Shown here in pieces: positions 11,157 through 44,493 of a stretch of 64,000 bases of DNA. Within the stretch, counting starts at the first letter, position 1, and every line of letters starts with the position of its first letter. The DNA is taken from assembly GCF_003955735.1 (NCBI RefSeq), contig NZ_CP034464.1, forward strand, positions 4,092,001 through 4,156,000, given 5' to 3'. This DNA is from Undibacterium parvum. Lineage in GTDB: Bacteria; Pseudomonadota; Gammaproteobacteria; Burkholderiales; Burkholderiaceae_D. The notes beneath the pieces were generated by a model. The model did not search any database, was not told the DNA's origin, and saw nothing but the letters and a program-made list of their open reading frames with translations. The translations under genes and the position numbers were made by a program.

Positions 11157-11236
11157 ATACTCCCGCCTAGTATGTTTTTAGCGCGGCCTAACTGTATGCG
11201 CAACTAGGGTATTTTTTGAAAAATAAAGGGGAGTAT
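11157..11236. repeat. 80-bp palindromic element, family A copy 1
   Basis: Exactly 80 bases bounded by inverted ATACTCCC and GGGGAGTAT, with CTAGTAT inside one end, an A/T-rich arm at the other, and a TGCGCA core. On the minus strand it aligns end to end with the 80-base copy at 44414-44493. It lies between serB (3' end) and the DUF4870-like gene. Confidence 0.75.
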
Positions 11237-11250
11237 CGCTAGAGCATGGC

Positions 11251-12114
11251 CTAGTTGAGTAAATTCAATACCCCATCCAGACCGACAAAATTGAGTGCCA
11301 CATCGGCTTGCGCGCGCACTACCGGTTTGGCGCGGAAGGCCACCGACATACCAGCGATTTTCATCATTTTCAAATCGTTAGCACCGTCGCCCATGACGAT
11401 GGCCTGGCTAGTGGCTATCCCCATTTCGGCGCAGACGCGTTCTACCGTGCGCTGTTTTTCGTCGGCATCGACGATGCCGCCGACCACTTTGCCGGTGAGC
11501 TTGCCGTCGGCGATTTCCAGTACATTGGCATGCGTGTAGTCAAGCTTTAGACGGGTTTTCATGCGGTCGGTGAAGAAGGTGAAACCGCCTGATACCAACA
11601 GGGTTTTTAATCCGGCTTGCTGGATTGCCTTAAGCATTTTGTCTGCGCCCAGTGACAATTGCAGACGTTCGTCGTAAACTTTTTGCAGGGCCGACGCATC
11701 CAGGCCTTTCAGCAGGGCGACACGGCGCGTCAGGCTTTCTTGAAACTCGAGCTCGCCGCGCATCGCCGCTTCGGTGATTTCTGAGACCTGCGCTTTTAAA
11801 CCTTGCATGTCAGCGATTTCGTCTATGCATTCTATGGTGATCAGGGTGGAGTCCATATCCATCGCCACCAGTTTAAAGTCGCTGAGTTTTCTTGCGCTAG
11901 TGGCGAAGTTGCTGTCTATCTGCGTGGCAAAACATTCGGCGCTGATTTGCTGCTGCAATTCTGCTGTGCAGGTGGCTTGCTGTAAGCGCACCGCCTGTGG
12001 TGAAATTTTCAGAATGTCGCTAGCCTGGCTCTGGTCAGCGATGCGCTGTATCAATGCCATGTCATTCTGGTCGAAGGTGCGCAAGGCTTGCAGGGTAATG
12101 TTGATCAGGTTCAT
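11251..12114 (-). CDS. serB: Phosphoserine phosphatase SerB, 287 aa
   Basis: Final step of serine synthesis: phosphoserine to serine, by a HAD-family phosphatase in the cytoplasm. The catalytic motif DMDST is at residues 86-90 (Asp86 nucleophile, Asp88 acid/base), followed by IECIDEIAD. HAD motif 2 is LLVSGGFTFFTDRMK, and motif 3 is IVMGDGANDLKMM. The first 80 residues form the divergent N-terminal domain seen in proteobacterial SerB; the ACT-like part is short compared with the 322-residue E. coli enzyme. It lies 55 bases downstream of mfd on the same strand, so it may be read from the mfd transcript. Confidence 0.95.
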   Translation of the reverse strand: MNLINITLQALRTFDQNDMALIQRIADQSQASDILKISPQAVRLQQATCTAELQQQISAECFATQIDSNFATSARKLSDFKLVAMDMDSTLITIECIDEIADMQGLKAQVSEITEAAMRGELEFQESLTRRVALLKGLDASALQKVYDERLQLSLGADKMLKAIQQAGLKTLLVSGGFTFFTDRMKTRLKLDYTHANVLEIADGKLTGKVVGGIVDADEKQRTVERVCAEMGIATSQAIVMGDGANDLKMMKIAGMSVAFRAKPVVRAQADVALNFVGLDGVLNLLN

Positions 12115-12169
12115 GCTCTGTGGTCGTTTAATTGTTAGGAATGATAGCGTCTGTGGGCAGCGGCAGCGG

Positions 12170-15100
12170 CTATTGCAGGGCCTTCATGGTGCTCTTGATT
12201 TGCGCCACGCGGGCCGCCAGATCGGGCATGTTGGCGGTGATGCGCAATTTGTCCTGGCCATTGAGTTTGATGTGCTTATTTTTTTGCACCAGTTCTATGA
12301 TGCGCATCGCGTCGATAGGCGGTTGCGGCTCGAACTGCAGACTGACCGCTTCGCTGTGGGCATCGATCTTGATGATGCCCAGAGGTTTGGCGGCGACCCG
12401 CAATCTATGCGTCTCTAGGAGCGATTTGACTGGATCGGGCAGTTTGCCGAAGCGGTCTATCATCTCTTCCTGTATGTCGTCGATGGCGTCCGCCTTGCTG
12501 CAATTGGCCAAGCGCTTATAGATGGACAGACGTTCATGCACATCGCCGCAGAAATCATTCGGCAATAGGGCAGGGATGTGCAGATTAATCTCAGTCATGG
12601 TTGACAGTGGTGCCGCCAGATCGGGTTCTTTACCGTTTTTCAGCGAGCGCACCGCTTCACTGAGCATGTCTGAATACATCTGGAAACCGATCTCGTGCAT
12701 TTCGCCCGATTGATTGTCGCCTAGCACTTCACCGGCACCGCGTATTTCCAGATCGTGCATTGCCAGGTAAAAGCCGCTACCGAGTTCTTCCATTTGCTGA
12801 ATCGCATCGAGACGGCGACTCGCTTGCTTAGTCAAACTTTGCACATCGGCCACCAGCAAATACGCATAGGCTTGATGATGCGAGCGGCCGACGCGGCCGC
12901 GCAGTTGGTGTAATTGCGCCAGGCCAAATTTATCAGCCCTGTGCATGATGATGGTGTTAGCGGTAGGGACGTCGATACCGGTTTCGATAATCGTGGTACA
13001 CAGCAAAATATTGTAGCGTTGCGCGACAAAATCGCGCATGACTTTTTCCAGATCGCGTTCGTGTAATTGGCCGTGGCCGACCGCAATGCGCGCTTCGGGG
13101 ATCAAGGCTTCCAGCATGGCCTTGCGGTTTTCTATGGTCTCGACCTCGTTGTGCAGGAAGTACACCTGACCGCCGCGTTTTAGCTCGCGCAGGCAGGCTT
13201 CGCGGATCACCGAATTATCTTCGCTGCGCACAAAGGTTTTGATCGCCAGACGTTTTTGCGGGGCGGTGGCGATGATGGAGAAATCGCGCAGACCTTCCAG
13301 TGCCATGCCCAGGGTGCGCGGTATCGGCGTTGCGGTCAGGGTCAAGACATCGACCTCGGCGCGCAAAGATTTTAAGGCTTCTTTCTGGCGCACCCCGAAG
13401 CGGTGCTCTTCATCGATGATGACCAAACCTAGGCGCGAAAATTTAATATCGTCAGACAGTAATTTATGCGTGCCGATGATGATGTCCAAAGTGCCGTCTT
13501 GCATGCCTTTGAGAGCTTGCGTGATTTCTTTGCCGCTGCGAAAACGTGACAGCTCGGCGATCCGCACCGGCCAATTGGCAAAACGGTCGGCAAAGGTCTG
13601 GGCGTGCTGCTCGGCCAGCAAGGTCGTGGGCGCGAGGATTGCCACCTGTTTGCCACCCATCACGGCGACAAAAGCGGCGCGTAAGGCGACCTCGGTCTTG
13701 CCAAAGCCGACATCGCCGCAGATCAGCCTGTCCATAGGTTTGCCGGAGGTCATGTCTTCAATTACTGCTGTAATTGCGGCGGCCTGATCGGCGGTTTCTT
13801 CAAAGCCAAAACTGTCGGCAAAGGCCTCGTAGTCTTTGTGTGAAAATTCAAAGGCATGGCCCTGGCGTAAGGCGCGGCGCGCATACAGATTAAGTAATTC
13901 GGCAGCGGTGTCACGGATCTGCTGCGCTGCCTTGCGTTTGGCTTTTTCCCAGTGCCCTGAACCTAGCGCATGCAAGGGCGCGTCATCAGGAGATGCGCCG
14001 GAATAGCGTGAGATCACGTGTAACTGTGCGACCGGCACGTAGAGCTTGGTTTCTTTAGCGTATTCCAGATGCAGGAACTCGGTTTCGCCTTCGCCCAGAT
14101 CCATGCTGATCAAGCCCATGTAGCGGCCTATGCCATGATTGCTGTGCACCACCGGGTCACCGATTTTTAGCTCGGAGAGATCGCGCACCATGTGCTCGAC
14201 CTGGGTCACGCCTTCTTGTTTTTTGCGACCTATACGTTTACCGGAACCAGCATACAACTCAGTCTCGGTCACGAATGCAATTTCGTCGAGCACGAAGCCG
14301 CTATGCAGTGGTGCTACACCGAGCATCAGTTTGGCGTCCGAGGTGATAAAGTCGGTATAGCCTTCACACAATGTGAGCGGGATCGCGTATTCGTTGAAAT
14401 ACTGTTGCAGGGTTTCGCGCCGGCCTAGCGATTCGGCGCAGATTAAGACGCGCTGTTTGCTCTGCAGTAAAAACGCGCGCAAATTGCTGAGTGGATCATC
14501 GGCGCGTCGGTTCACTGCCAGATCTGGCAAGAAACTGGAGATCTCAGAAGCTGCGCCGCCACTATTTAAGACCCAGCGCGCCTGCGATTTGAGTGCGCCG
14601 AAAAAATCTTCATCGCGCAAGAACAGCGTTTCTGGTGCCAGCACCGGACGCTGCCGGTCCGATTTTAAAAATTGATAGCGCGAACGGGTATCGACCCAAA
14701 AGCGCTGTATCGCTTCATCAATGTCGCCGAGCAAGGCAAAATGGCTGTGCTCGGGTAGGTAGTCGAACAGAGTCGCGGTGCTGTCAAAAAACAGCGGCAG
14801 GTAATATTCTATGCCGGCCGAGGGGATGCCGCCGCTGATGTCTTTGTAGATCATGGAGCGTGAAGGATCGCCCTCAAACTGCTCGCGCCAGCGGCTGCGG
14901 AAACCAGTGCGTGCCGCCTCGTCCATAGGAAACTCGCGCCCCGGCAATAAGCGCACTTCGCGTACCGGGTAAAGTGAGCGCTGAGTGTCGGCATCAAAGG
15001 TGCGTATGGTTTCTATGCTGTCGCCAAATAGATCGAGGCGATATGGCAGTACCGAACCCATAGGGAAAATATCGATCAGGCCGCCGCGCACCGAGTATTC

Positions 15101-15589
15101 GCCGGGTGACATCACTTGTGAAACATGCGCGTAACCAGCTAGCGTCAATTGTGACTTTAAACGCGCTTCATTCAGCACTTCGCCTTGCTTGAAGAAAAAA
15201 GTGTAGGCAGCGAGAAACGAAGGCGGTGCCATCCGCACCAAGGCGGTGGTGGCGGGCACCAGCAGCACATCGCAATTGCCGGCACTGATTTCATGCAAAG
15301 TGGCCAGACGCTCAGAGACCAAATCCTGATGCGGTGAAAAGGCATCGTAGGGCAGGGTTTCCCAGTCTGGCAGCAGATGGCAGCGCAGATTCTGATCAAA
15401 CCAGGGGATTTCAGCGAGCAGGCGTTGCGCATCGGCCGGATTGGCCACAAACACAGTCAGCATGCGTTTTTGCGCTTTGAGTGCGAGCGCGCTCACTGCT
15501 AGCGCATAGGCGTCGGCCGATCCGTGTAAATTAGGGAGAGCAAAACGATTGCCGGGCTTGGGAAGAGCTTTGACGAGATCAAATGACAT
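12170..15589 (-). CDS. mfd: Transcription-repair coupling factor Mfd, 1139 aa
   Basis: ATP-dependent translocase that removes RNA polymerase stalled at DNA damage and recruits UvrA. Domain order fits Mfd: a UvrB-like N-terminal part (LPDWETLPYDAFSPH), the RNA-polymerase-interacting CarD-like domain (GDPVVHSNHGIGRYMGL), then the RecG-like motor with Walker A GDVGFGKTE, DEEH box, TATPIPRTL and QLRGRVGRS, and a C-terminal TRCF domain. I chose ATG 15589, which gives a length close to E. coli Mfd (1148 aa). A TTG start 102 bases upstream is possible but adds unconserved residues. Divergent from ispD. Confidence 0.96.
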   Translation of the reverse strand: MSFDLVKALPKPGNRFALPNLHGSADAYALAVSALALKAQKRMLTVFVANPADAQRLLAEIPWFDQNLRCHLLPDWETLPYDAFSPHQDLVSERLATLHEISAGNCDVLLVPATTALVRMAPPSFLAAYTFFFKQGEVLNEARLKSQLTLAGYAHVSQVMSPGEYSVRGGLIDIFPMGSVLPYRLDLFGDSIETIRTFDADTQRSLYPVREVRLLPGREFPMDEAARTGFRSRWREQFEGDPSRSMIYKDISGGIPSAGIEYYLPLFFDSTATLFDYLPEHSHFALLGDIDEAIQRFWVDTRSRYQFLKSDRQRPVLAPETLFLRDEDFFGALKSQARWVLNSGGAASEISSFLPDLAVNRRADDPLSNLRAFLLQSKQRVLICAESLGRRETLQQYFNEYAIPLTLCEGYTDFITSDAKLMLGVAPLHSGFVLDEIAFVTETELYAGSGKRIGRKKQEGVTQVEHMVRDLSELKIGDPVVHSNHGIGRYMGLISMDLGEGETEFLHLEYAKETKLYVPVAQLHVISRYSGASPDDAPLHALGSGHWEKAKRKAAQQIRDTAAELLNLYARRALRQGHAFEFSHKDYEAFADSFGFEETADQAAAITAVIEDMTSGKPMDRLICGDVGFGKTEVALRAAFVAVMGGKQVAILAPTTLLAEQHAQTFADRFANWPVRIAELSRFRSGKEITQALKGMQDGTLDIIIGTHKLLSDDIKFSRLGLVIIDEEHRFGVRQKEALKSLRAEVDVLTLTATPIPRTLGMALEGLRDFSIIATAPQKRLAIKTFVRSEDNSVIREACLRELKRGGQVYFLHNEVETIENRKAMLEALIPEARIAVGHGQLHERDLEKVMRDFVAQRYNILLCTTIIETGIDVPTANTIIMHRADKFGLAQLHQLRGRVGRSHHQAYAYLLVADVQSLTKQASRRLDAIQQMEELGSGFYLAMHDLEIRGAGEVLGDNQSGEMHEIGFQMYSDMLSEAVRSLKNGKEPDLAAPLSTMTEINLHIPALLPNDFCGDVHERLSIYKRLANCSKADAIDDIQEEMIDRFGKLPDPVKSLLETHRLRVAAKPLGIIKIDAHSEAVSLQFEPQPPIDAMRIIELVQKNKHIKLNGQDKLRITANMPDLAARVAQIKSTMKALQ

Positions 15590-15831
15590 AGACTGCAAAA
15601 CTTGGGTTGGAAGCGAAACACTGAGATCTAAGTCGGCGCAATTGCTGGGAACGCGCACCTGACAAGGATTTGGCTTTAAAATGAGGCTCAATTATAAACG
15701 AAGCGAGTGGCGCTGTTTTTTAGAGTGGCCGCTTCTGGCTAGTGAGTTGGCCGATTCAGGCTTGATCGTGAAGTTTTTTGAAGTATTTTGAAGTTTCTGT
15801 CCCTGCTGTCAGCCGATAAACCGAATTAAAT

Positions 15832-15858
15832 CACCTTAATCACCTTAATCACCTTAAT
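15832..15858. repeat. Tandem CACCTTAAT repeat before ispD
   Basis: Three perfect copies of the 9-base unit CACCTTAAT end 15 bases before the GTG start of ispD. A looser 10-base repeat (TGAAGTNTTT, three units) lies at about 15768-15797. The 284-base mfd/ispD divergent region holds no gene. The repeats could change promoter spacing if their copy number varies. Confidence 0.7.
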
Positions 15859-15873
15859 TAAAATTAAATCCGC

Positions 15874-16590
15874 GTGAATCAGACTCTTTCCAGTAATCCT
15901 ACTTCTCTTCCCGCAGTGCGTTATGTGGCCTTAATCCCCGCTGCAGGCGTCGGTGCCCGTATGGGCGGCGGCACCCCCAAGCAATATCTGCAGATTGATG
16001 ATCAGCCCATCTTGCGCCATACGGTGCAGGCATTTTTACTGGCAAAACAGATCGCCCATACTTATGTGGTTGTGAGTGCCGAGGATGGCTATGTCGATGC
16101 CGCCCTGAGCGGCATGGAGAATGTCAGTATCTTGCGTTTCGGCGGTGCCACCCGACGTGACACGGTCAGCAATGGCCTGGCAGCGCTGGCAGCGCAATTG
16201 TCGGTGGATGATTGGGTCTTGGTGCACGATGCGGCACGGCCCGGTTTAACGCCAGCGCTGATCACGCACTTGATACAACAAGTGGGCGAGCATGCGGTCG
16301 GTGGTTTGTTGGCCTTGCCAGTAGTTGATACCGTTAAACGGGTGGTGGCGGGACGGGTTGAGACCATCGCGCGCGATGGCCTGTGGCTGGCGCAGACGCC
16401 GCAAATGTTTCGCTATCTAATTTTGTCGGATGCCTTAGCTGCTGCCAGTGAAGTGACCGATGAGGCCAGCGCGATCGAGGCGGCCGGCTTGATACCGCTA
16501 TTGGTCGAGGGCCATGCCTGTAATTTGAAAGTGACCTTGCCAGCCGATCTGGCGCTGGCGCAGCGTTATCTGAGTGGGTCTATGGGCTAA
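15874..16590 (+). CDS. ispD: 2-C-methyl-D-erythritol 4-phosphate cytidylyltransferase IspD, 238 aa
   Basis: Third step of the MEP isoprenoid pathway: MEP plus CTP gives CDP-ME. The nucleotide-binding loop AAGVGARMGGGTPKQYL (residues 23-39) with its Gly/Arg/Lys signature and the VHDAARPGL motif are clear. Length is normal for the family. The start is GTG at 15874 without a clear ribosome site; an internal start would cut the conserved core closely. ispF follows at 16746, but a degenerate family A palindrome sits between them, so the usual tight ispD-ispF spacing is broken. Confidence 0.95.
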   Translation: MNQTLSSNPTSLPAVRYVALIPAAGVGARMGGGTPKQYLQIDDQPILRHTVQAFLLAKQIAHTYVVVSAEDGYVDAALSGMENVSILRFGGATRRDTVSNGLAALAAQLSVDDWVLVHDAARPGLTPALITHLIQQVGEHAVGGLLALPVVDTVKRVVAGRVETIARDGLWLAQTPQMFRYLILSDALAAASEVTDEASAIEAAGLIPLLVEGHACNLKVTLPADLALAQRYLSGSMG

Positions 16591-16625
16591 ACGATGGGCT
16601 TATTGTTGTGTTTGTTGAAGAGTGG

Positions 16626-16708
16626 ATACTCCTATCTAGTATCACTCTCATGCAGTGGTTTGCCCGCATGTTGATTGCGCAAATCGCACTTACTTCCCTA
16701 TACTCCCC
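16626..16708. repeat. Family A palindrome, degenerate copy between ispD and ispF
   Basis: Begins ATACTCCTATCTAGTAT, matching the CTAGTAT end of the copy at 11157. It has a TTGCGCA core and ends near ATACTCCCC at 16700-16708. The second end is in the same orientation as the first, unlike the intact copies, so this copy is rearranged or decayed. Confidence 0.5.
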
Positions 16709-16745
16709 TAAAATCTATTATATTTAATTGCATAGCGAGCCTCAA

Positions 16746-17249
16746 ATGAATCAAACTTCTGCTACTTTTCCGCCTTTTCGAATTGGCCAAGGTTACGATT
16801 GCCATGCGCTGGTAACGGGCCGCAAGCTGATCATAGGCGGGGTCGATATTCCACATAAAACCGGCTTGCTCGGGCATTCTGATGCCGATGTTTTATTACA
16901 CGCAATTACCGATGCGCTGTTCGGTGCTGCCGGTTTGGGCGATATCGGCAGGCATTTTCCTGATACCGATACCCAGTTTGCCGGGACTGATTCGCGCGTG
17001 CTGCTACGTGAGGCGGTGGTGCGCTTGCATGCGGCGGGTTTTGTGGTGGGTAACCTGGACGCTACTATCATCGCCCAGCAACCGAAGATGGCACCGCATA
17101 TCGCTGCCATGGTCGCGAATATTGCCGCTGATCTGCAGGTTGCTAAAGAGTGCGTCAACATCAAAGCCAAGACCAATGAAAAGCTCGGCTATTTGGGGCG
17201 CGAAGAAGGGATCGCTGCCGAAGCGGTGGTACTGGTGTTTCGCGCCTAA
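16746..17249 (+). CDS. ispF: 2-C-methyl-D-erythritol 2,4-cyclodiphosphate synthase IspF, 167 aa
   Basis: Fifth step of the MEP pathway: CDP-ME-2-phosphate is cyclised to MEcPP with release of CMP. The zinc site GYDCHAL (Asp18, His20) and [17 protein letters not shown], with the third metal ligand, are present, as are the HFPDTD loop and [13 protein letters not shown] near the C-terminus. The protein forms a trimer. I chose ATG 16746; a TTG frame start at 16728 adds six residues inside the repeat's flank. Length is a little above the usual 159 because of a short N-terminal tail. Confidence 0.95.
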
Positions 17250-17340
17250 TCGGACTAGACTGGATGCTGTGATTCGCGCTCCGTAGGCGCAGCTGATTTG
17301 TTTCGCTGTATTGGCTTAATTGTTGTTTTAGGAGTTGAAA

Positions 17341-17610
17341 ATGGAAAAAGAAAAACTGAAAAGCCTGCTCAAGCAATTGCATGAGGGTTTACTTAATACC
17401 GAGCACGTCGATGATGATGTGAAATCTTTACTGCTCAATTTAAATAATGATATCCATGAGGTGCTTAACAACGATGTGCCGGATGATCCGATTTATTCGG
17501 CCTTGAGCGAGCGCTCGCAAGCGCTGTCGGCACGCTTCGCGGCGCAGCATCCTAAGCTAGAACCGGTCTTGCGCGAATTGGGCGGTATGTTGGAAAAAAT
17601 GGGCGTTTAA
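17341..17610 (+). CDS. DUF4404 family protein, 89 aa
   Basis: Small, acidic, helical protein of unknown function. The heptad-like N-terminus KEKLKSLLKQLHEGL and the conserved ending LEPVLRELGGMLEKMG match the DUF4404 family. There is no membrane segment or signal peptide. ATG 17341 is well placed after TTAGGAGTTGAAA. It is followed by a strong terminator, so it either ends the ispD-ispF unit or is its own gene. Confidence 0.75.
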   Translation: MEKEKLKSLLKQLHEGLLNTEHVDDDVKSLLLNLNNDIHEVLNNDVPDDPIYSALSERSQALSARFAAQHPKLEPVLRELGGMLEKMGV

Positions 17611-17634
17611 ATGAGTGTGTAAACACCTGAAATA

Positions 17635-17673
17635 AAAAGCCCGCGCATCGTCATTGATGCGCGGGCTTTTTTT
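17635..17673. terminator. Strong terminator between convergent genes
   Basis: AAAGCCCGCGCATC pairs with GATGCGCGGGCTTT over a 6-base loop, followed by T7. The A-run on the left makes it usable from the opposite strand as well (3' end of the flavin oxidoreductase at 17709). Confidence 0.93.
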
Positions 17674-17708
17674 ATGCTTAGTCCATCGTGAGGATGAACC
17701 AAGCAAGC

Positions 17709-18953: not shown

Positions 18954-19135
18954 TGTCATCCTTGAAGCACATCGTATTTTAAAGCCTATGCTGTCGCATT
19001 TTTACCATTCGAAAATGGGCGCTGGTGTTGGCTAGTGTTATGTGCTGCTACTTTGTTAAATTGAGTGTCTCATTGTGGCGAATTCTGCTACTTTTATGCC
19101 TCTCGCCAGAGGGTAAATCTATTGCAGGCGCAATT

Positions 19136-19823: not shown

Positions 19824-19917
19824 AATAATTCTTTCGGTATGGGTGGCCTGTATTTTGGCCTGATGATGTTGGTTCTCGTTGAATACTCAGGGCGTGCCGC
19901 TGCGTTTGCTGGCAGTG

Positions 19918-20711: not shown

Positions 20712-20793
20712 ATACTGGGTAGGGGTATCGGGATGAGCGCAGCGTTCGCGCTTTATCTATGCGCGCAAACAGCCTTAGCTATCGGATACTCCC
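20712..20793. repeat. Family A palindrome, degenerate copy beside maf
   Basis: Begins ATACTGGGTAGGGGTAT, close to the ATACTGCGGTAGGGTAT end of the copy at 33006. It has ATCTATGCGCGCAAA in the core and ends GGATACTCCC one base before the maf stop codon. The second end is not inverted as in the intact copies. Confidence 0.5.
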
Positions 20794-21435
20794 TCATTTG
20801 AAGAAGGCTACGGCTAGCTTTCTGAGCATGCCGGTGAGCGCGATGAGCGGCAAACCGGTGAGCGCAGTCGGATCCTCGCTGACAATTTTTTCTAGGATGG
20901 CAATCCCCAGCGCTTCGTTCTTGGCGCTGCCGGCGCAATCATAGGGCTGCTCTATGTGCAAATAAGCATCGAGTTCGGCATCGCTCAGGTCGCGAAAATG
21001 CACCAGGGTTTGTATATTCTGTATTTGTACTTGAGGCGCACTGGCGTCGCGCTCGGATCTGCCGTCGAATACGCACAGTGCAGTATGAAAGACCACTTGC
21101 TTGCCGCGCATTTTTTGCAATTGTTGCAGGGCGAATTGATGATTGCCAGGCTTGCCAATTTGCTCGCCCTCTAGTGTTGCAACCTGGTCTGAGCCTATAA
21201 TGATGCTTCCCGGACGGATTTTCGCAATTGCGGCGGCTTTTTCTTGCGCCAGGCGCAGTGCGGTTTGCTCTGGCGCCTCATGCGGGCAGGCCGTTTCGTC
21301 GATTTCTGGCGCGATACTCTCGAAAGGCAGGCGCAGGCGCGCCAGTAATTCGGCTCGATAAGTTGAGCTGGATGCTAAAATGAGCGGCTGACTCAAAGCT
21401 TTGTTCGGTAGCGTGTTATTGGTTGTAGATTGCAT
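20794..21435 (-). CDS. maf: Maf-family nucleotide pyrophosphatase (YceF type), 213 aa
   Basis: Hydrolyses non-canonical nucleotides; the YceF subgroup prefers m7GTP. Key motifs: LILASSSTYRAELL at the start, PEIDETA, GSDQVATLEG (Asp catalytic) and the ending SEDPTALTGLPLIALTGML. The C-terminal pattern fits YceF rather than the dTTP/UTPase YhdE. I chose ATG 21435; a TTG at 21465 in the same frame is possible, and neither has a ribosome site. It diverges from yceD-rpmF, a common arrangement (yceF next to yceD-rpmF). Confidence 0.9.
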   Translation of the reverse strand: MQSTTNNTLPNKALSQPLILASSSTYRAELLARLRLPFESIAPEIDETACPHEAPEQTALRLAQEKAAAIAKIRPGSIIIGSDQVATLEGEQIGKPGNHQFALQQLQKMRGKQVVFHTALCVFDGRSERDASAPQVQIQNIQTLVHFRDLSDAELDAYLHIEQPYDCAGSAKNEALGIAILEKIVSEDPTALTGLPLIALTGMLRKLAVAFFK

Positions 21436-22391: not shown

Positions 22392-22408
22392 TATCGTTCT
22401 TGGTGATG

Positions 22409-33005: not shown

Positions 33006-33085
33006 ATACTGCGGTAGGGTATATTTGCAATGCGCACGATCTATATGCGCAAAGTCATGGTTTTATTTTATTTTTAGGGGAGTAT
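33006..33085. repeat. 80-bp palindromic element, family A copy 3
   Basis: Exactly 80 bases, bounded by ATACTGCGG on the left and GGGGAGTAT on the right, with paired TGCGCA cores around CGATCTATA. On the minus strand it starts ATACTCCCCTAAAAATAAAA and matches the copies at 34850 and 44414. It lies between the mucD terminator and the glutaredoxin-like gene and ends 37 bases before that gene's start. Confidence 0.75.
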
Positions 33086-33380: not shown

Positions 33381-33410
33381 TTTGAATGCGAATTTTGGTG
33401 AGTAAGCACG

Positions 33411-34849: not shown

Positions 34850-34940
34850 ATACTCCCCTAAAAAAAAGTTTCCCTAAATTGCTTGCGCACATAGATCATG
34901 CGCAAGCGGCTAGGTGTAAGGAAATACACTGGGGGAGTAT
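34850..34940. repeat. Family A palindromic element, copy 4 (91 bp)
   Basis: Bounded by ATACTCCCC and GGGGGAGTAT, with a perfect inner pair GCTTGCGCA (34881-34889) and TGCGCAAGC (34899-34907) around CATAGATCA. It is slightly longer than the 80-base copies. It sits between two convergent genes (the methyltransferase and ppsR), where it could also serve as a terminator-like structure. Confidence 0.75.
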
Positions 34941-35829: not shown

Positions 35830-35938
35830 GAGAAATGTCGTGTAGGTGTAGTGAGAGAGATGAAAGTGAGATGAAAAGAATTTATCGCAAAACCGAAGAA
35901 AAAGAGGGTAAATCCTTTTCTAGTCTCGATAAATTTGC

Positions 35939-35953
35939 TTTACACAATGTAAA
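35939..35953. promoter_or_regulatory. Palindromic candidate operator between ppsR and ppsA
   Basis: TTTACACAATGTAAA, a perfect 6+3+6 inverted repeat about 110 bases ahead of the ppsA start. It may bind a carbon-source regulator; no regulator is identified. Confidence 0.35.
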
Positions 35954-36061
35954 ATGGCGCAACAGCAGCGGACTCTGGCATCTAGAATAACAAAAAAAGC
36001 CGGACAGGCGAAGCAAGAAAATTGCAGCTCACAGATTTCTTACCATCAAAAAGAGGTTGTT

Positions 36062-38494
36062 ATGTCCAACGCAATAAATACCGAGGCTAGTATTGATACT
36101 ACGTACGTCGCTTTATTTGAGCATTTACGCATGACGGATGTTGAATCCGTCGGCGGTAAAAATGCCTCATTAGGCGAAATGATTAGCCAATTGGCTAACG
36201 CAGGAGTGCGGGTTCCGGGTGGCTTTGCCACTACGGCGCAAGCCTTCCGTGACTTTTTATCGCATAGCCAAGACGGTGGCGCGCCACTGGCGCAACGCAT
36301 TGCCGACCGTCTCGTTACGCTAGACATCGAAGATGTACGCGAATTGGCCAAAGCCGGTGCCGAGATCCGTCAATGGATCATAGAAACACCGTTTCAGCCA
36401 CGTCTACAGAAAGAAATCGAAGAGTTCTACAACAAACTGGTGGCCGATTCGAGCGCCGAGATGTCGTTCGCAGTGCGCTCTTCGGCCACCGCCGAAGATT
36501 TGCCAGACGCGTCTTTCGCTGGTCAACAAGAGACTTTCTTGAACGTCGTCGGTATCGACAATGTGCTGGAGGCAATGAAACATGTGTTTGCCTCGCTGTA
36601 CAACGATAGAGCGATTTCCTACCGCGTACACAAAGGTTTTACCCATGCTGAGGTCGCTTTGTCGGCCGGTGTGCAGCGTATGGTGCGTTCCGATTTGGGC
36701 GCGGCTGGTGTGATGTTTACGATAGACACCGAATCCGGCTTTAAGGATGTGGTTTTCATCACATCTAGCTATGGTCTGGGCGAAACGGTGGTGCAGGGTG
36801 CGGTCAATCCGGACGAATTCTATGTCCACAAGCCTATGCTGGAATTAGGTAAGTTGCCTGTGATCCGTCGCAATATCGGTTCTAAACTGATTAAGATGGA
36901 GTTCACTGGTGAAGCCAAGGCTGGTCGCTCGGTAAAGACGGTCGACGTGCCGGTAGAAATGCGTAACCGCTATTCTCTCGATGATGCTGAAGTGGTTGAA
37001 CTGGCAAAATACGCCGTGATCATCGAGAAGCATTATGGTCGCCCTATGGATATCGAATGGGGTAAAGATGGTCGCGACGGCAAGCTGTATATTTTGCAAG
37101 CGCGTCCTGAAACCGTAAAGTCGCAACAAAAATCGACCGATGCCCAGCAGCGTTTCCGTCTCAAAGGTACCGGCATCGTGCTCGCTTCGGGTCGTGCCAT
37201 TGGTCAAAAAATCGGTGCTGGTCGTGTGCGTGTGATTCACGATCCGTCTGAGATGGAGCGCGTACAACCGGGCGACGTGTTGGTGGCGGATATGACTGAT
37301 CCTAACTGGGAGCCAGTCATGAAGCGCGCTGCCGCGATCGTGACGAATCGTGGTGGCCGTACTTGCCATGCTGCGATTATCGCGCGTGAACTGGGTGTGC
37401 CTGCGGTGGTTGGTTGCGGTGATGCGACTGATACGCTGAAAGACGGCATGCTGGTCACCGTATCTTGTGCAGAGGGCGACGAAGGTAAAATTTACGACGG
37501 TTTGATCGAGACCGAAGTGACTGAGGAAATTCGCGGTGAATTGCCGAAATTGCCTTTGAAGATCATGCTCAACGTTGGCAATCCACAACTGGCGTTTGAT
37601 TTCCAGTCTGTGCCTAATGAAGGCGTTGGTTTGGCCCGCTTAGAATTTATCATCAACAACAATATCGGTGTCCATCCAAAAGCGATTTTGGAATATCCGA
37701 ATATCGATCCAGCCCTGAAAAAGGCGGTTGAATCGGTAGCGCGTGGCCATGCCTCGCCAAAAGCGTTTTACGTCGATAAATTGGCAGAAGGCGTGGCAAC
37801 CATCGCTGCTGCATTCTGGCCGAAAAAAGTCATCGTGCGTTTGTCAGACTTTAAATCCAATGAGTATAAAAAACTCATAGGCGGATCGCGTTACGAGCCG
37901 GATGAAGAGAATCCTATGCTCGGTTTCCGTGGCGCAGCGCGTTATCTGGCATCCGATTTCGCCGAGTCTTTTGAGATGGAATGTCTGGCCATGAAGCGCG
38001 TGCGCAACGACATGGGTTTGACTAACGTTGAGATCATGGTGCCGTTTGTGCGTACCTTGGGCCAGGCGCAAAAAGTGGTCGATTTGCTGGGGCAGAACGG
38101 ATTGAAACGCGGTGAAAATGGCTTGCGTCTGATCATGATGTGCGAAGTTCCTTCTAATGCTATTTTGGCTGAGCAATTCTTAGAGCATTTCGATGGCTTC
38201 TCTATCGGCTCTAACGATCTAACTCAACTCACTTTGGGCTTGGACAGGGATTCTGGCATGCCTTTGTTGGCAGCAGACTTTGACGAGCGTGATCCTGCAG
38301 TATTAGCCTTGTTGTCGCAAGCGATTGCCGCTTGCCGTAAGCTCGGTAAGTACGTTGGTATTTGCGGCCAGGGGCCATCGGATCATCCGGATTTTGCGGC
38401 ATGGTTGATGAAAGAGGGCATAGAAACCATTTCTCTGAATCCTGATTCTGTGATCGACACCTGGAAGCAATTGGCTGCTTTGGCAAATAAATAA
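36062..38494 (+). CDS. ppsA: Phosphoenolpyruvate synthase PpsA, 810 aa
   Basis: Converts pyruvate and ATP to PEP, AMP and phosphate, for gluconeogenesis. Domain order: ATP-grasp N-domain ([34 protein letters not shown]), the swivelling phospho-His domain with [15 protein letters not shown] (His436), and the PEP-utilising barrel with a catalytic Cys in [11 protein letters not shown]. Length is close to the E. coli enzyme (792 aa). I chose ATG 36062 (AGAGGTTGTT ribosome site); the frame is open upstream to 35954. Control by the divergent PpsR is expected. Confidence 0.96.
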
Positions 38495-38522
38495 GTCAAA
38501 ATTCTAGCGTTATGCTTGAATA

Positions 38523-38557
38523 AAAACGCCTTCATGTACTGCATGAAGGCGTTTTTT
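38523..38557 (+). terminator. Terminator after ppsA
   Basis: AAAACGCCTTCATG pairs with CATGAAGGCGTTTT over a short loop, with T6. Confidence 0.93.
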
Positions 38558-38603
38558 AGTTTCTAACTTTGCTTTTTTATATAAATGCGCTAGACTAAAC
38601 GCA

Positions 38604-38693
38604 TAGCAATAGTGATAAGAAAAAGATTAAAAACTTCGAAAATAATTCACAGAAAAACCCTCGTTCATCTTCTCAGATGGCGAGGGTTTTTTT
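38604..38693 (+). ncRNA. Candidate small RNA downstream of ppsA
   Basis: A second strong terminator (AAACCCTCG../..CGAGGGTTT plus T7, 38653-38693) follows the ppsA terminator with no gene between them. About 17 bases separate TTTGCT (near 38571) from TAGACT (near 38594), which could be a promoter giving a transcript of about 90 bases that ends at this hairpin. The hairpin itself is solid; the promoter is weak. It could instead be a back-up terminator. Confidence 0.35.
38653..38693 (+). terminator. Second terminator downstream of ppsA
   Basis: AAACCCTCG pairs with CGAGGGTTT; the inner TCATC/GATGG partly pair too. T7 follows. It lies about 100 bases before the nfeD-like gene. Confidence 0.9.
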
Positions 38694-38800
38694 GTGAGCA
38701 GATTACCGATGACTAATTATTTTTAATGATAGAAACTGTAGAAGTTAAACCAAGTTAAATTGCGTTGAGTTAACTTAATAGCCAAGGAGAAATCTAAACT

Positions 38801-39235
38801 ATGAATGCATGGATGAGTTGGTTGGCGCTAGCCGCTGTGGTCGTGATACTGGAGCTATTTACCGGTACCTTTTATTTGCTGATGATTTCCATCGGTCTGG
38901 TGGCTGGTGCCGTGATCGCGCTACTGGGTGCCGGCACAGAGATGCAAACCTTGAGTGCAGCCTTGGTCGGTGCCTTGGCGACTGTGTTACTACATAAGAG
39001 TAAATATGGCTGGCGTGAACGTCAGGATGCTAGCCGCAATCCAGATGTGAATATGGACATAGGTCAAAGTATCACGGTGCAGCAATGGCAGGATCAGGGC
39101 GGCGGTAAATTCACTGCGCGTGCCATGTATCGCGGTGCGATGTGGGATGTGGAGTTACAGCATTCGGCACCGGCTGCCGGCGTGTTTGTGATAGTAGAAA
39201 TTGTTGGAAGTCGTTTAATGGTAAGACCGTCGTAA
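38801..39235 (+). CDS. NfeD family membrane protein, 144 aa
   Basis: Two to three N-terminal membrane helices (residues 7-25, 26-45 and 48-65), then a cytoplasmic OB-fold domain (DIGQSITVQQWQDQGGGKFTARAMYRGAMWDVEL). Members pair with stomatin-like SPFH proteins, and one is encoded directly downstream. This is the short NfeD1b-type form without the protease domain. The role is probably membrane-domain organisation or quality control, inferred from the pairing. ATG 38801 follows AAGGAGAAATC. Confidence 0.85.
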   Translation: MNAWMSWLALAAVVVILELFTGTFYLLMISIGLVAGAVIALLGAGTEMQTLSAALVGALATVLLHKSKYGWRERQDASRNPDVNMDIGQSITVQQWQDQGGGKFTARAMYRGAMWDVELQHSAPAAGVFVIVEIVGSRLMVRPS

Positions 39236-39295
39236 TCAGGCGTAAAAATTTTGTAGTGTAGCTTTTATTGTCGTAAGAAATTAAAGGGAAATATT

Positions 39296-40237
39296 ATGGA
39301 AAGTTTTGGAGGCGTCGCCTTTATTTTATTTATTTTAGCCATCGTTTTCGTGGTTAAGACTGTTAATGTGGTGCCACAACAGCACGCCTGGGTGGTCGAG
39401 CGTTTGGGTAAATATCATGCCACTCTGGGCCCTGGTTTAAATATCGTGGTGCCGTTTATCGACAGGATTGCCTACAAACATATACTCAAAGAAATTCCGC
39501 TCGATGTGCCGCCGCAAGTTTGTATTACCCGCGACAATACGCAATTACAAGTAGATGGGATTTTGTATTTTCAGATCACTGATCCTATGCGCGCCTCTTA
39601 TGGCTCATCCAATTACATCGCCGCAATTACGCAATTGGCGCAAACCACTTTGCGCTCGGTGATCGGTAAGATGGAATTGGATAAAACCTTTGAGGAGCGC
39701 GATCATATCAACACCAGTATCGTCAATGCGATTGATGAGTCCGCTGCCAACTGGGGCGTCAAGGTGCTGCGTTATGAGATTAAGGATCTGACTCCACCGA
39801 AAGAAATTTTGCATGCGATGCAGGCACAGATTACCGCCGAGCGTGAAAAACGCGCCTTGATTGCCGCCTCTGAAGGCCGTAAGCAAGAGCAAATTAATAT
39901 CGCGACTGGTGAGCGTGAGGCCTCAATTGCTAAATCCGAAGGTGAGATGCAGGCGTCTATCAATCGCGCCCAAGGACAGGCTGCAGCAATCTTGGCGATT
40001 GCCGAAGCCAGCGCGGAAGCCTTGCGTAAAACGGCGAGCGCGATCCGTGAACCCGGCGGTGCCGATGCAGTAAATTTAAAAGTCGCGGAACAATATGTGG
40101 CGGCCTTTAGTAACCTCGCCAAAACCAATAATTCTATTATCGTCCCCGCCAATCTGAGTGATATCAGTGGCCTGATCGCTGGTGCCATGCAGGTGGTTAA
40201 ATCACAAAAACCTATCGATTTCCAAGGTACTAAATAG
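39296..40237 (+). CDS. SPFH/band 7 (stomatin-like) protein, 313 aa
   Basis: Anchored in the inner membrane by an N-terminal helix (residues 5-25). The band 7 domain begins VVPQQHAWVVERLGKYHATLGPGLN and contains the ERDHINTSIVNAID stretch. A long coiled-coil rich in Ala, Glu and Arg spans about residues 180-250 (EREKRALIAASEGRKQ). It resembles the QmcA/paraslipin subgroup and is expected to form large oligomeric rings. Encoded with an NfeD partner, the typical pair. Downstream lies a 550-base region without a gene. Confidence 0.9.
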   Translation: MESFGGVAFILFILAIVFVVKTVNVVPQQHAWVVERLGKYHATLGPGLNIVVPFIDRIAYKHILKEIPLDVPPQVCITRDNTQLQVDGILYFQITDPMRASYGSSNYIAAITQLAQTTLRSVIGKMELDKTFEERDHINTSIVNAIDESAANWGVKVLRYEIKDLTPPKEILHAMQAQITAEREKRALIAASEGRKQEQINIATGEREASIAKSEGEMQASINRAQGQAAAILAIAEASAEALRKTASAIREPGGADAVNLKVAEQYVAAFSNLAKTNNSIIVPANLSDISGLIAGAMQVVKSQKPIDFQGTK

Positions 40238-40341
40238 TGTCATTTGTAGGCGTAGGTAGTCGCAGACTTACGCTTGGGTAGTTTGCCTATGAGTAATAGC
40301 AGCAGAATTTAGCCGCAGGGTTGACTCACAAGAGTATCAAG

Positions 40342-40398
40342 ATGCATGTCAGGTTTTAGCCTTCTAACCGTAGGCTAGAAAATGGCATGCATTTTTTT
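40342..40398 (+). terminator. Long imperfect hairpin and T-run after the stomatin-like gene
   Basis: ATGCATG (40342-40348) to CATGCAT (40386-40392), with about 21 mostly paired bases per arm (GTTTTAGCCT against AGGCTAGAAAA), followed by seven T. It lies 105 bases after the stop. The shape fits a terminator. Confidence 0.7.
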
Positions 40399-40569
40399 AT
40401 GCCGGATAGAGCGGAATCAAAAATTGTCTAAAGCATGCGTATCAAGCTTCATAGTATTTAAGCCGCGAGCAGCGGCTTGCGCATCGATTTTTATCAGACC
40501 TCATGCCTTAAAAACAGAATTATATTTTTTAATGCGCCGCATGTACCAACTTTTGTAATGTGAAACATG

Positions 40570-40651
40570 AATTTCATAATGTGGGATTGACGTTGGGAAT
40601 GCACAAATTATATTTATCATTTGAAGAAAATCAATTTCATAACATGGGATT
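40570..40651. promoter_or_regulatory. Direct repeats upstream of aceA
   Basis: AATTTCATAATGTGGGATT (40570-40588) and AATTTCATAACATGGGATT (40633-40651) differ at two of 19 positions and are exactly 63 bases apart, about six helical turns. A third partial match (TTGTAATGTG) and a TGAAA/TTTCA inverted repeat lie next to the first. This looks like a regulator array for the glyoxylate-shunt gene. Confidence 0.55.
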
Positions 40652-40696
40652 TTGTATTTATCTTATTGATTTATAAGTGATAAATAATATTTATAT

Positions 40697-40740
40697 GTCT
40701 TATATAAGACATTGCTGCTGTGCGGTAAATATTCTATTAT
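40697..40740 (+). promoter_or_regulatory. Probable aceA promoter with upstream palindrome
   Basis: A perfect 14-base palindrome GTCTTATATAAGAC (40697-40710) abuts TTGCTG (40712-40717). A 17-base spacer then leads to TATTAT (40735-40740), about 47 bases before the aceA ATG. The position suggests an activator or operator site at the -35 region. Confidence 0.5.
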
Positions 40741-40786
40741 TTCTCTTGAGCTTAGGTAATTGCATTTTTCTATAGAGAGATAAATC

Positions 40787-42085
40787 ATGGCAACACGTGA
40801 ACAACAAATTGCGGCTGTTCAGGAGGATTGGGATACGAACCCCCGTTGGGTCGGTATCCAACGTAATTACACCGCCGCCGATGTGGTTAATTTGCGTGGG
40901 TCATTGCAGGTTGAACATACTCTAGCGAAAAATGGCGCGATCAAATTATGGAGTTTGCTCAACAACACATCTTATTTGAATGCGCTCGGTGCCATGACTG
41001 GCAATCAAGCCTTGCAACAAGTAAAGGCGGGCTTGAAGGCGATTTACCTGTCTGGTTGGCAGGTGGCGGGCGATGCTAATCTTGCTGGAGAAATGTACCC
41101 GGATCAATCGCTGTATCCGGTTAATTCAGTACCCTCGGTAGTCAAGAGTATCAATAACTGTTTGGCGCGCGCTGACCAAATTCAATGGTCGGAGGGGCAA
41201 GGGGATACCGATTTTTTTGCGCCTATCATCGCCGATGCCGAAGCTGGGTTTGGTGGCGTCTTAAATGCCTTCGAGCTCATGAAGTCTATGATAGAAGCAG
41301 GCGCATCCGGAGTGCATTTTGAAGATCAATTGGCCTCGGTGAAAAAGTGCGGTCACATGGGTGGCAAAGTGCTAGTGCCGACCCGCGAAGCGATAGAGAA
41401 GCTCAATGCTGCGCGTCTGGCCGCTGACGTCATGGGTACGCCCACCGTTTTGCTGGCGCGCACCGATGCGGAGGCCGCAGATTTGCTTACCTCCGACATT
41501 GATGCGAATGACCAGCTATTTTTGACCGGTGAGCGCACTGTGGAAGGTTTTTATAAAACCACACCAGGCTTGCAGCAGGCGATCGCCCGTGGTCTGGCGT
41601 ATGCACCGTATGCTGACATGATCTGGTGTGAAACGGCTAAGCCGGATCTGGAATTTGCCAAGGCCTTCGCCAAGGCGATACATGCTCAATTTCCGGGTAA
41701 ATTATTGGCGTATAACTGCTCGCCTTCGTTTAACTGGAAGAAAAATCTGGATGATTCGACCATCGCCAAATTCCAAAAAGAATTGGGTAAGATGGGGTAT
41801 AAATTCCAATTTATTACCCTGGCAGGTTTTCATGCCCTGAACTACAGTATGTTTAATTTGGCGCATGCTTACGCCAGACGCCAGATGTCAGCCTTTGTGG
41901 AGTTGCAAGAGGCTGAATTCGCAGCGGCGGAGCGAGGCTTTACCGCGGTCAAGCATCAACGTGAAGTCGGCACTGCTTACTTCGATGCGGTGACTCAGGC
42001 GATACAGCAAGGTCAGTCGTCGACCACCGCTTTGCATGGCTCTACCGAAGATGCGCAATTTTTTGATGAGCAGAAAGTGGCCTGA
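40787..42085 (+). CDS. aceA: Isocitrate lyase AceA, 432 aa
   Basis: Splits isocitrate into glyoxylate and succinate, the first step of the glyoxylate shunt, needed for growth on acetate and fatty acids. The catalytic signature [10 protein letters not shown] is at residues 186-195, with Cys188. [10 protein letters not shown] and the C-terminal [10 protein letters not shown] are also family hallmarks. Length matches the shorter proteobacterial form (E. coli 434 aa). ATG 40787 follows AGAGAGATAAATC. It stands alone; malate synthase is not in the window. It complements ppsA and the acyl-CoA genes on the left. Confidence 0.96.
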
Positions 42086-42115
42086 TTAAATTGCGACTTG
42101 GGCTAGTAGCTAAAC

Positions 42116-42144
42116 CACGCGATCTCGATGGCGTGTTTTTTTTT
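42116..42144 (+). terminator. Weak terminator after aceA
   Basis: CACGC (42116-42120) pairs with GCGTG (42131-42135), followed by T9. The stem is short but the T-run is long. Confidence 0.6.
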
Positions 42145-42205
42145 CGGCTAGTCGCTTTTGAGTTGGAGCGTGGCTGCTGATGGCTGGCAATGAGTTAATA
42201 TAGTC

Positions 42206-42307
42206 GGACTTACGCAAAACCGCCCCAGCGTTGTTGTGTCCGCCTTGCCGTACTGAAGTACTGTCTTCGGCTGCACGCCTAGCTGGACCAATTTTGTGTA
42301 AATCCTA
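42206..42307. repeat. Dispersed repeat family B, full copy
   Basis: About 102 bases with inverted ends GGACTTACGCAAAACCG and TTTTGTGTAAATCCTA. CCCCAGCGTTGTTG and GCCTAGCTGGACC lie inside, with the central CCTTGCCGTACTGAAGTACTGTCTTC. On the minus strand it matches the shortened copy at 5881-5947 outside the centre and shares the GACAGTAC../..GTACGGCAAG core with the copy at 46382-46484. Confidence 0.75.
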
Positions 42308-42379
42308 TATAGATGAAGAAACGAAGAATTTTTTGCTGTGACAAGCGCTGTGCCGCTATTGGCTTTGATAAAAGTGAAT

Positions 42380-43054
42380 ATGAATCCTAGAACGAGAATT
42401 AAAATTTGCGGTTTTACGCGTGCCGAAGATATCCAGATTGCGGTTGCCGCTGGGGTGGATGCTTTGGGTTTTGTGTTTTATCCGCCAAGTCCACGCTATG
42501 TCAGTCCAGCCCTGGCCGGACATTTGTTGGTAGCTTTGCCGCCCTTTGTGATGGCTGTGGGTTTGTTTGTGAATCCTAGTGTAGAAGACGTGCTGGCCGC
42601 GGTAGCGCAAGCGCCGCTGCAGATGCTGCAATTTCATGGAGATGAAACGGCGGAGCAGTGTCATCAGCTCGCCAGCGCCGTGAATCGTCCCTTTATGCGG
42701 GTATTCCGAGTGAAAGCCGACACAAGTGGCGCGGATTTGTTAGAATATGAAGCTCAGTGTCGTGCAACGAGCCCTTTATTTAGTGGTTTATTGCTCGATA
42801 CCTTTGTCGATAGCTTCGGTGGTAGTGGAAAGGTTTTTGATTGGTCTCTAATCCCAAAAGAACTCGCGCCTCGGGTCGTTTTAAGTGGTGGCTTGAGCGT
42901 ACTAAACGCGACTGACGCGGTCAGCCGTGTTCGACCTTTTGCGGTCGACATCAGTAGTGGTGTCGAGGCAGCGAAAGGTATCAAGGATGCAGCCAAAATG
43001 CGCGCTTTTGTAGCCGCTGTCAGATTGGCTGACAATCAGGATAGTGCCGCGTAA
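42380..43054 (+). CDS. trpF: Phosphoribosylanthranilate isomerase TrpF, 224 aa
   Basis: Third step of tryptophan synthesis from anthranilate: Amadori rearrangement of PRA to CdRP. TIM barrel with [18 protein letters not shown] (the active-site Cys is the C of ICG), [18 protein letters not shown] with the catalytic Asp, and the phosphate-binding [10 protein letters not shown] chose ATG 42380; a GTG at 42338 in frame would add 14 unlikely residues. trpB follows after 35 bases. Confidence 0.95.
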
Positions 43055-43089
43055 GCGCACCCTCCCCAAAAAAAATCGCAAGGACTAGT

Positions 43090-44361
43090 ATGAAAGAATT
43101 ATCTCCTCTTGACACTCAATTCGAGCGTCAGGCACTGCAGCCGCAAGCGATCTATCATGCGGCAACTTATAATTTTCCCGATGCGCGCGGCCATTTCGGC
43201 ACCTATGGCGGCAGCTTTGTTTCCGAAACTTTGACGCATGCTTTAAGTGAGTTGAAAGACGCTTACGCCAAATATCAACATGATCCCGAATTTTTAGCCG
43301 AGTTTCGCCATGAGCTAAAACATTACGTCGGTCGTCCGTCTCCCGTGTATCACGCCAAGCGTTGGTCCGAAATCATGGGCGGCGCGCAGATTTATTTCAA
43401 GCGTGAAGATCTTAATCACACCGGCGCGCACAAGATCAATAATGTCATCGGTCAGGCTTTGCTGGCCAAACGCATGGGCAAGCCACGCGTGATTGCTGAG
43501 ACTGGCGCTGGTCAGCATGGCGTCGCCACCGCCACCATCTGCGCCCGCTTTGGTTTGGAATGCGTGATTTACATGGGTTCAGAAGACATTAAGCGTCAGG
43601 CCCAAAACGTGTATCGCATGAAGCTCTTGGGCGCAACGGTGGTGCCGGTAGAGTCGGGCTCCAAGACGCTCAAGGACGCCTTGAACGAAGCCATGCGCGA
43701 CTGGGTTGCCAACGTAGACAATACTTTTTACATCATCGGTACCGTGGCCGGTCCGCATCCTTATCCTATGATGGTGCGCGATTTTCAATCTGTGATCGGT
43801 GAGGAATGCCTGTGGCAGATGCCGGAAGTGAGCGGACGTCAACCCGATGCGGTGGTCGCTTGTGTTGGTGGCGGCTCGAATGCGATGGGGATTTTTTATC
43901 CGTATATCGATCAAAAAGATGTGCAACTGATCGGTGTAGAGGCGGCCGGTGAGGGCATGGAGTCCGGCAAGCATTCCGCTTCGCTGACGGCCGGTTCACC
44001 TGGTGTCTTGCACGGCAATCGCACTTATTTGCTGCAGGATGAAAATGGTCAGGTGATAGAGACTCATTCAGTCTCGGCTGGCTTGGATTATCCGGGCGTC
44101 GGGCCCGAGCATGCCTGGTTAAAAGATCTGGGTCGTGCTCAATACGTCACGATTACCGATGAAGAGGCGCTCAAGGCTTTCCACGATTGCTGTCGTATCG
44201 AAGGCATTATCCCGGCGCTGGAATCGAGTCATGCCTTGGCCTATGCGGCGAAGTTGGCGGCGACCTGGCCCAAGGATAAGATTATTCTGGCTAATCTTTC
44301 TGGGCGCGGCGATAAGGATATGCATACCGTGGCAGAAAAAGCGGGCTTGAATTTTTATTGA
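43090..44361 (+). CDS. trpB: Tryptophan synthase beta chain TrpB, 423 aa
   Basis: PLP enzyme that joins indole and serine. The PLP lysine is Lys115 in [12 protein letters not shown]. The phosphate-binding [10 protein letters not shown] and the GVEAAG and [11 protein letters not shown] endings are present. Length is at the upper end for the family because of an N-terminal extension of about 25 residues. A CTGGGAG/CTCCCAG hairpin without a T-run follows at 44373-44399, then a family A repeat before trpA. Confidence 0.96.
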
Positions 44362-44413
44362 GATGGCTGGGCCTGGGAGTGTGAGAGTTGCGCTCCCAGT
44401 CTCGCTGAATCAT

Positions 44414-44493
44414 ATACTCCCCTTATTTTTACAATAAACTAGGCCATTTGCGCACGTATTCATTGCGCGCTTAAAAAATACTAGTGGGAGTAT
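44414..44493. repeat. 80-bp palindromic element, family A copy 5, inside the trp operon
   Basis: ATACTCCCCTTATTTTTACA at the left and TACTAGTGGGAGTAT at the right, with TTTGCGCA and TGCGCGC in the core. It is 80 bases long, the same as the copies at 11157 and 33006. It lies in the 195-base gap between trpB and trpA, where these genes usually lie close together or overlap. Confidence 0.8.

Follow-up and report, generated by a model that had tools for sequence, protein, structure and literature searches.

The window, i.e. the whole stretch of 64,000 nucleotides that was analysed (G000:C1:4092001-4156000, on the 4.91 Mb contig of Undibacterium parvum, genome G000), carries six intergenic copies of a palindromic element of about 80 bp (Table 1). 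Re-reading the sequence, we found the four well-formed copies where an initial annotation had placed them, at 11157, 33006, 34850 and 44414, three being exactly 80 bases long. The two copies it had called decayed, at 16626 and 20712, are better described as copies with one or both terminal boxes inverted in place; they lie outside the 80 profile matches given below. The right end of the 16626 copy reads ATACTCCCC (from 16700) where GGGGAGTAT is expected, and both copies reach ~8-9 bases further right once the turned box is included. TAC-N8/9-GTA is present in 6/6 window copies, with a C-tract that is weak or turned in some. The element between trpB (assigned from its PALP match and position) and trpA (assigned by Pfam) has the top R1 profile score of the genome, 70.1 bits. 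The nearest named relatives of this trpA, in a comparison that may have left out the record of the genome itself, are from Undibacterium (88% identity).

Comparison with the relative G014 revealed an ortholog of the 11157 element at the matching junction in identical orientation and a 90-bp long variant at the junction corresponding to 34850. By eye, the turned right box of 16626 recurs at its orthologous G014 junction, as does the combination of turned left and normal right box of 33006, while the junction of 20712 holds a degenerate remnant. A long near-perfect core stem extending beyond TGCGCA, comparable to that of 34850, is also seen elsewhere in G000 (L476, G000:C1:2134635-2135651, at ~455-490).

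Table 1. Positions of the elements and related features (window coordinates unless a contig or locus is named)
Feature	Position	Strand	Boxes and other parts	Neighbouring genes
Element, usual arrangement	11157..11236	+	left box 11157-11173 (TAC-N9-GTA), right box 11220-11236	weakly DUF4870-like gene / HAD-type gene
Element, right box turned in place	16626..16716	+	left box 16626-16642 (TAC-N9-GTA)	downstream of IspD gene
Weak copy, both boxes turned	20712..20802	+	left ATACTGGGTAGGGGTAT 20712-20728, right ATACTCCC from 20786	
Element, left box turned, right box normal	33006..33085	+	left ATACTGCGGTAGGGTAT 33006-33022	trypsin/PDZ-type protease gene / RNase HII gene
Long variant, 91 bp	34850..34940	-	extended core stem GCTTGCGCA/TGCGCAAGC	convergent SpoU-type methylase and kinase/pyrophosphorylase genes
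Element between trpB and trpA	44414..44493	-	left box on trpA side, 44477-44493, TAC-N8-GTA	trpB / trpA
Divergent PF02583 gene, outside window	G000:C1:1556055-1556366	minus		
PF02583 upstream box to second ATACTCCCC	L432 1381-1461 and equivalents			
~145-bp repeats	L158 4734-4879, 8894-9025, 10528-10680, 11225-11377; L156 6434-6577, 10511-10655			

A genome-wide family at conserved gene junctions

In an oriented copy, the left box ATACTCCCCnCnAGTAT (17 bp) is followed by an AT-rich spacer, a TGCGCA-N9-TGCGCA core, a second spacer and the right box nAAAAATnGGGGAGTAT. The ends form terminal inverted repeats (ATACTCCC/GGGAGTAT), though the boxes can be turned singly. Exact ATACTCCC-N50-80-GGGAGTAT pairs occur 38 times in G000 vs 0 for the reversed pattern, which bears out the annotation in that the palindromes are an intergenic, repeated family whose ends and core stay constant. 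Searching the genome for further copies with R1, a sequence-only profile built from 35 copies, gave 80 distinct places at or above 25.7 bits, i.e. many beyond the window, and one further match at 25.2 bits. The figure of 80 is a lower bound, since 16626, 20712 and further box-turned sites fall outside it; at least some of 12 further G000 box sites (e.g. L474, L477, L482 and L483) look like additional box-turned copies. Turning of a box in place, with little change in length, was seen by eye at the left end in at least 8/80 and at the right end in 7/80 G000 copies. Three left-turned copies (1177953, 1123275 and 59205) have a G006 ortholog in the usual orientation, and their turns are therefore probably derived. 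In the related genome G015 a symmetrical pattern gave 91 places; too strict a spacing of the boxes gave 16.

Four G000 copies (C1:405780, 1060599, 2846935 and 3993577) have upstream flanks in common, are 94-96% alike and belong to a larger repeated unit. Two further copies, at 22393 and 4909330, are near-identical, have the same flanks and lie near opposite contig ends, the latter ~1 kb from the end; 4909330, which is counted among the 80, is probably an assembly duplicate of 22393, arising where the two ends of the circular contig overlap. Carriage by viruses was considered and rejected: of 92 exact matches in viral contigs, 4 had GTA near the left box and none was element-like by eye, and we took them as chance. 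Literature searches covering titles and abstract openings found no paper describing these elements, and those with the box sequence had unrelated papers alone among the matches listed.

Assigning junction classes with a simple codon-usage ORF caller, we found that of the 80 G000 places 41 are co-directional, 19 convergent and 5 divergent, while 3 overlap a predicted ORF and 12 are unclassified. Convergent junctions thus make up 19/65 classified places vs 3/32 in the small background of window gaps of at least 60 bp (26 co-directional, 3 convergent and 3 divergent). The 41 co-directional copies are unbiased in orientation relative to transcription (22 co, 19 anti). Structured RNA at gene ends, i.e. 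terminators or mRNA-processing hairpins, would agree with the share of convergent junctions, with the few copies that have long perfect core stems (34850; L476) and with cores that remain inverted repeats in several species. This explanation appears highly improbable to us: orientation shows no preference, the consensus fold retains the invariant outer stem only, and inversion of a single box counts against it because it breaks that stem. The paired TGCGCA core of the initial annotation stood in so far as the half-sites form an inverted repeat, but not as a covarying stem, the middle core pair being broken in 17/35 copies. Neither alignment folding nor pair counts supported the core; compensated change was found in 0/8 pairs by alignment folding, and covariation was at shuffle level among 35 G000 copies, for which the core helix was examined. 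Rfam gave no match within the window. The annotation had also raised conserved RNA structures at the same places in relatives; copies do lie at relatives' junctions, yet with single boxes inverted and cores that do not covary. Recognition of the double strand by a protein fits the elements better than an RNA stem.

Flanking-protein matches were used to compare junctions across the genus. For 15/15 G014 elements and 9/9 G006 elements tested, mostly top matches of R1 and hence of a model built from G000, the same junction also holds a G000 element in identical orientation. Six of the G014-G000 pairs are identical, flanks included, and reflect recent exchange. In G033, 7/33 tested elements match a G000 element, or 8/34 with trpB-trpA, the denominator counting elements regardless of gene order, and all are co-oriented by eye; in G015, 2/22 elements match a G000 element junction. 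The trpB-trpA junction carries an element in 14/30 genus members read, one of them decayed (G019) and the 13 intact ones co-oriented. The remaining 16/30 species have different intergenic DNA there, and no clean empty site was seen among them. G033 and G027, which align over 82.6 kb at 91.6% identity, have 3/3 alignable elements in common. Outside the genus, the element pattern was found in 0/9 genomes of other genera of the same family. Among 386 genomes of other families 7 had it, each a single time, and the reversed control likewise gave 7 single occurrences.

Seven large-genome species have one copy each, at one junction in all seven. The right part of this copy (L337-L341, L343 and L344, at about position 1500) runs into the predicted 5' end of what by eye looks like a sugar-binding protein gene, and the copy may for this reason be exapted.

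G000 and G014, otherwise diverged, also have blocks of ~10-14 kb that are 99-100% identical (L156/L157, L158/L159 and L160/L161; in G000 at C1:1836000-1855000, 2308000-2326000 and 2340000-2354000), due to recent exchange or chimeric assembly. Within the blocks, small ORFs and elements are arrayed like cassettes together with other repeats. Some of these repeats, ~145 bp long and bounded by inverted ends of GTGGGCAC type, make up a second family (Table 1). Integron-like arrays were rejected as a description of the elements: some copies do lie in arrays with small ORFs and repeats, yet most are single and dispersed.

Sequence constraint, concerted core change and mobility

Comparison of seven G000-G033 orthologous junctions showed that the 20-bp flanks are randomised (identity 0.26 and 0.29 vs 0.31 at mismatched junctions), with left and right box identities of 0.64 and 0.72 (0.67 and 0.74 among non-orthologous copies). 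Box identity was 0.70 and 0.77 in six G000-G006 pairs and 0.73 and 0.83 in nine G000-G014 pairs; in the latter randomisation is incomplete, the flanks being 0.52 and 0.48 identical vs 0.31. The comparison leaves out 4909330 and the six identical G000-G014 pairs, and it used, like the own-profile, copy-similarity and duplication tests below, copies within set length limits. Conservation extends beyond the ends, with A at -2 in 42/62 and T at +2 in 49/62 G000 copies, indicating that the ends are not clean insertion boundaries.

The core differs between species as a dialect: TGCGCA..TGCGCA in G000, TGTCCA..TGGACA in G015 and GCCC..GCTGA.. in G033. The left boxes of G003 are palindromic (ATACCCCCGGGGGTAT). 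In 10/10 orthologous pairs (8 distinct G000 loci) each copy scored best with the profile of its own genome, the tested copies having been left out of the profiles. An old insertion that decayed neutrally would not arrive at such an own-genome core consensus. Copies within a genome resemble nearly independent draws from the profile with a slight excess of similarity (sd 0.053 vs 0.045 for 50 G000 copies, after 12 array, shared-flank or duplicate copies were dropped), an excess that is larger in G033 and G015 than in G000. Near-independence of the copies is more readily explained by selection for a common target than by recent copying; with the small excess of similarity, gene conversion may have contributed to the concerted core change.

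We asked how these results bear on the annotated view of the elements as mobile, namely as a MITE- or REPIN-like family moved by a transposase that recognizes the ends, now mostly quiet and with later species-specific waves. The repeated, palindromic and intergenic nature of the family held, and its inverted ends, 80-bp size and dozens of copies, few of them between divergent genes, are what such a family would have; some copies are moreover duplicated with their flanks (the four at 405780, 1060599, 2846935 and 3993577) or placed in arrays. What found little support is the mobility, given that relatives have copies at matching junctions and in the same orientation. New waves could not refill an identical site in the same orientation and yet match the core of the host. 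The flanks of 62 G000 copies showed no target site duplication (k = 2-10 bp, no excess over shuffled flanks), and the conserved A and T outside the ends also speak against insertion. We thus regard mobility as quite unlikely for the present copies, weakly supported and disfavoured as it is; it may describe a distant origin of the elements.

A RAYT gene flanked by the same ends, which the initial annotation had suggested looking for, did not emerge; the search for a mobilising gene covered this one family (PF01797). PF01797 is present in 42/43 genus genomes, element-free ones included, and does not track the elements, so that a REPIN/RAYT system was rejected; none of these genes adjoins an element in G000 or G033, and in G015 one element lies downstream of a RAYT gene. 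A RAYT-type gene is located just 5' of a gene that by eye resembles one for glutamate synthase in G000, G033 and G015 (L241, L242 and L243), with other short repeats between the two.

Known systems resemble the family in part. MITEs such as ERIC and Correia elements are likewise short and intergenic, with inverted ends and tens of copies; ERIC counts differ greatly among taxa, and an IHF site is present in a Correia copy (PMC10969869). Unlike these, the elements here lack target duplication, are conserved in position, orientation and outer bases, and have boxes that invert in place. REPINs are inverted pairs maintained over long periods together with a protein that is passed on vertically (PMC8049555), a likeness to the present family, which unlike them tracks a CsoR-family gene instead of RAYT.

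A CsoR-family gene that co-occurs with the elements

The form of the RcnR operator prompted us to search 43 genus genomes for PF02583 (DUF156), the left box of the elements, TAC-N8/9-GTA around a C-tract, having the published form of CsoR-family operators. In the CsoR study (PMC3902906), operators are TAC/GTA inverted repeats spanning nine bases around G-tracts with AT flanks, three of them are given for S. lividans, and the RLXR motif of helix 1 was tested for DNA binding. PF02583 was found in 28/43 genomes, and a divergent member of the family (50.5-62.6 bits) is present in 26 and missing from 17. Among 36 genus genomes this gene was found in 22/22 with an R1 match and 0/14 without (Fisher 2.6e-10, relatedness ignored). 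Over all 43 genomes, with element presence taken as R1 at E <= 0.001 or pattern (pattern only, without R1, for G060, G061 and G064), elements occur in 24/26 genomes with the gene and 1/17 without (Fisher 9.1e-9, relatedness ignored), i.e. the gene is present in 24/25 element-bearing and 2/18 element-free genomes; five of the 43 are less than 75% complete, these being without the gene or seen by pattern only. The exceptions are G062, with one exact element and no divergent gene, and G066 and G064, with the gene and no element found; in addition, G021 has the gene and about four elements (E <= 0.05), and the gene-less G009 has two weak partial R1 matches (E 0.026 and 0.037). The divergent gene is thus not sufficient for elements, as seen in G066, G064, G021 and the large-genome species. 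The other PF02583 genes, numbering 15 in 14 genomes, show no such tracking of the elements; about half of the element-rich genomes have at least one.

A trpA+trpB tree of 38 genus genomes was inspected by eye. Ten of them form a deep clade that is without gene and elements. The other clade shows two absences of the gene, one in G005 and one in G001/G012/G062, and these genomes have 0, 0, 0 and 1 elements, so that by eye only two further gene losses within the element-bearing clade are informative on the co-occurrence. Relatives of the divergent protein at 66-70% identity are named Collimonas, Massilia or Solimicrobium, a wider distribution than that of the elements.

The gene has a box of its own. 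ATACT-N6/7-AGTAT was found within 130 bp upstream of the divergent PF02583 gene in 25/26 genomes (22 exact; the miss is G019), with the C-tract mostly absent. As controls, the 15 other PF02583 genes had 0 exact and 3 one-mismatch boxes in the 230 bp surrounding their starts, and among window genes the box was found at 4/51, all four adjoining an element, and at 0/47 others.

The G000 protein matches the PF02583 profile with 59.7 bits (cut-off 22.8) and is predicted to have three helices (mean pLDDT 82.7), with InrS and CsoR among its six solved relatives. The curated subtypes RicR, FrmR and RcnR were not reached (31.5/175, 26.4/133 and 20.4/138 bits vs cut-offs). The RLAR motif of helix 1 is invariant in 20/20 aligned proteins, Cys50 is present in 19/20, and a Met is aligned opposite a CsoR His, both positions having presumed ligand roles.

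We propose, with a probability of roughly 0.6, that the elements are fixed composite binding sites whose end boxes would be bound by the divergent CsoR/RcnR/FrmR-family protein, with an effect at the DNA level genome-wide; that they are fixed composite sites with end boxes for a CsoR-like protein, leaving the effect aside, seems to us somewhat surer. Each element would consist of two 17-bp CsoR-type end boxes which, at a defined spacing, flank a third site, the inverted-repeat core. The left box, TAC-N8/9-GTA around the C-tract, would be a full operator form and the right one a half-box ending GGGGAGTAT, i.e. half an operator. The PF02583 protein proposed to bind them is probably autoregulated. 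It changes too little to account for the core dialects, and the core may be bound by a second, faster-changing partner. Since the ~80 sites lie mostly at co-directional or convergent junctions, seldom at divergent ones, and without orientation bias, the likeliest effect would be one on DNA, shaping or insulating it at gene ends and possibly answering a signal.

The sites could instead be fixed ones for another factor, e.g. a nucleoid protein, and the link to PF02583 a coincidence arising from the history of the clade and from a box shape that is common. Gene and elements do divide along a single deep split between clades, some genomes have the gene and few elements, and the conserved PF02583 protein cannot read the core dialect. 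We consider this unlikely, because the link was predicted from the shape of the box ahead of the gene search, and the upstream box in 25/26 genomes and the two further co-losses would all have to be chance.

The proposed CsoR-type sites share with known operators the TAC/GTA inverted repeat of about nine-base spacing, the G/C-tract and AT flanks, alongside a PF02583 protein of RLXR type; unlike known operators (PMC3902906), few per genome and in promoters, they are dozens of 80-bp composites of two boxes plus core at junctions. Dispersed bacterial palindromes are usually classed as mobile elements or RNA hairpins; the present family behaves like protein-binding sites at fixed junctions amid randomising flanks and has a named candidate binder. 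How a bacterium gains dozens of sites, retains them and alters them together can thereby be tested directly in this family. The DNA uptake sequences of Neisseriaceae, ~12 bp and far more numerous, are likewise short dispersed sites with dialects that shift together among relatives, and they differ from the 80-bp composites found here. More tentatively, we suggest that in one Undibacterium clade a CsoR/RcnR-family repressor may have turned into a protein that binds the chromosome genome-wide, its composite 80-bp sites numbering in the tens and lying at conserved junctions, that a fast-evolving reader of the core could have led to dialects rewritten together, and that the network would dissolve upon loss of the repressor gene. 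If true, a metal-sensor-type repressor would have become a genome-scale DNA-binding protein.

At the start of the PF02583 gene, the sequence ..GAT ACT CCC CC.. provides a second ATACTCCCC ~73 bp past the upstream box, near the spacing of the elements (Table 1), which may be chance.
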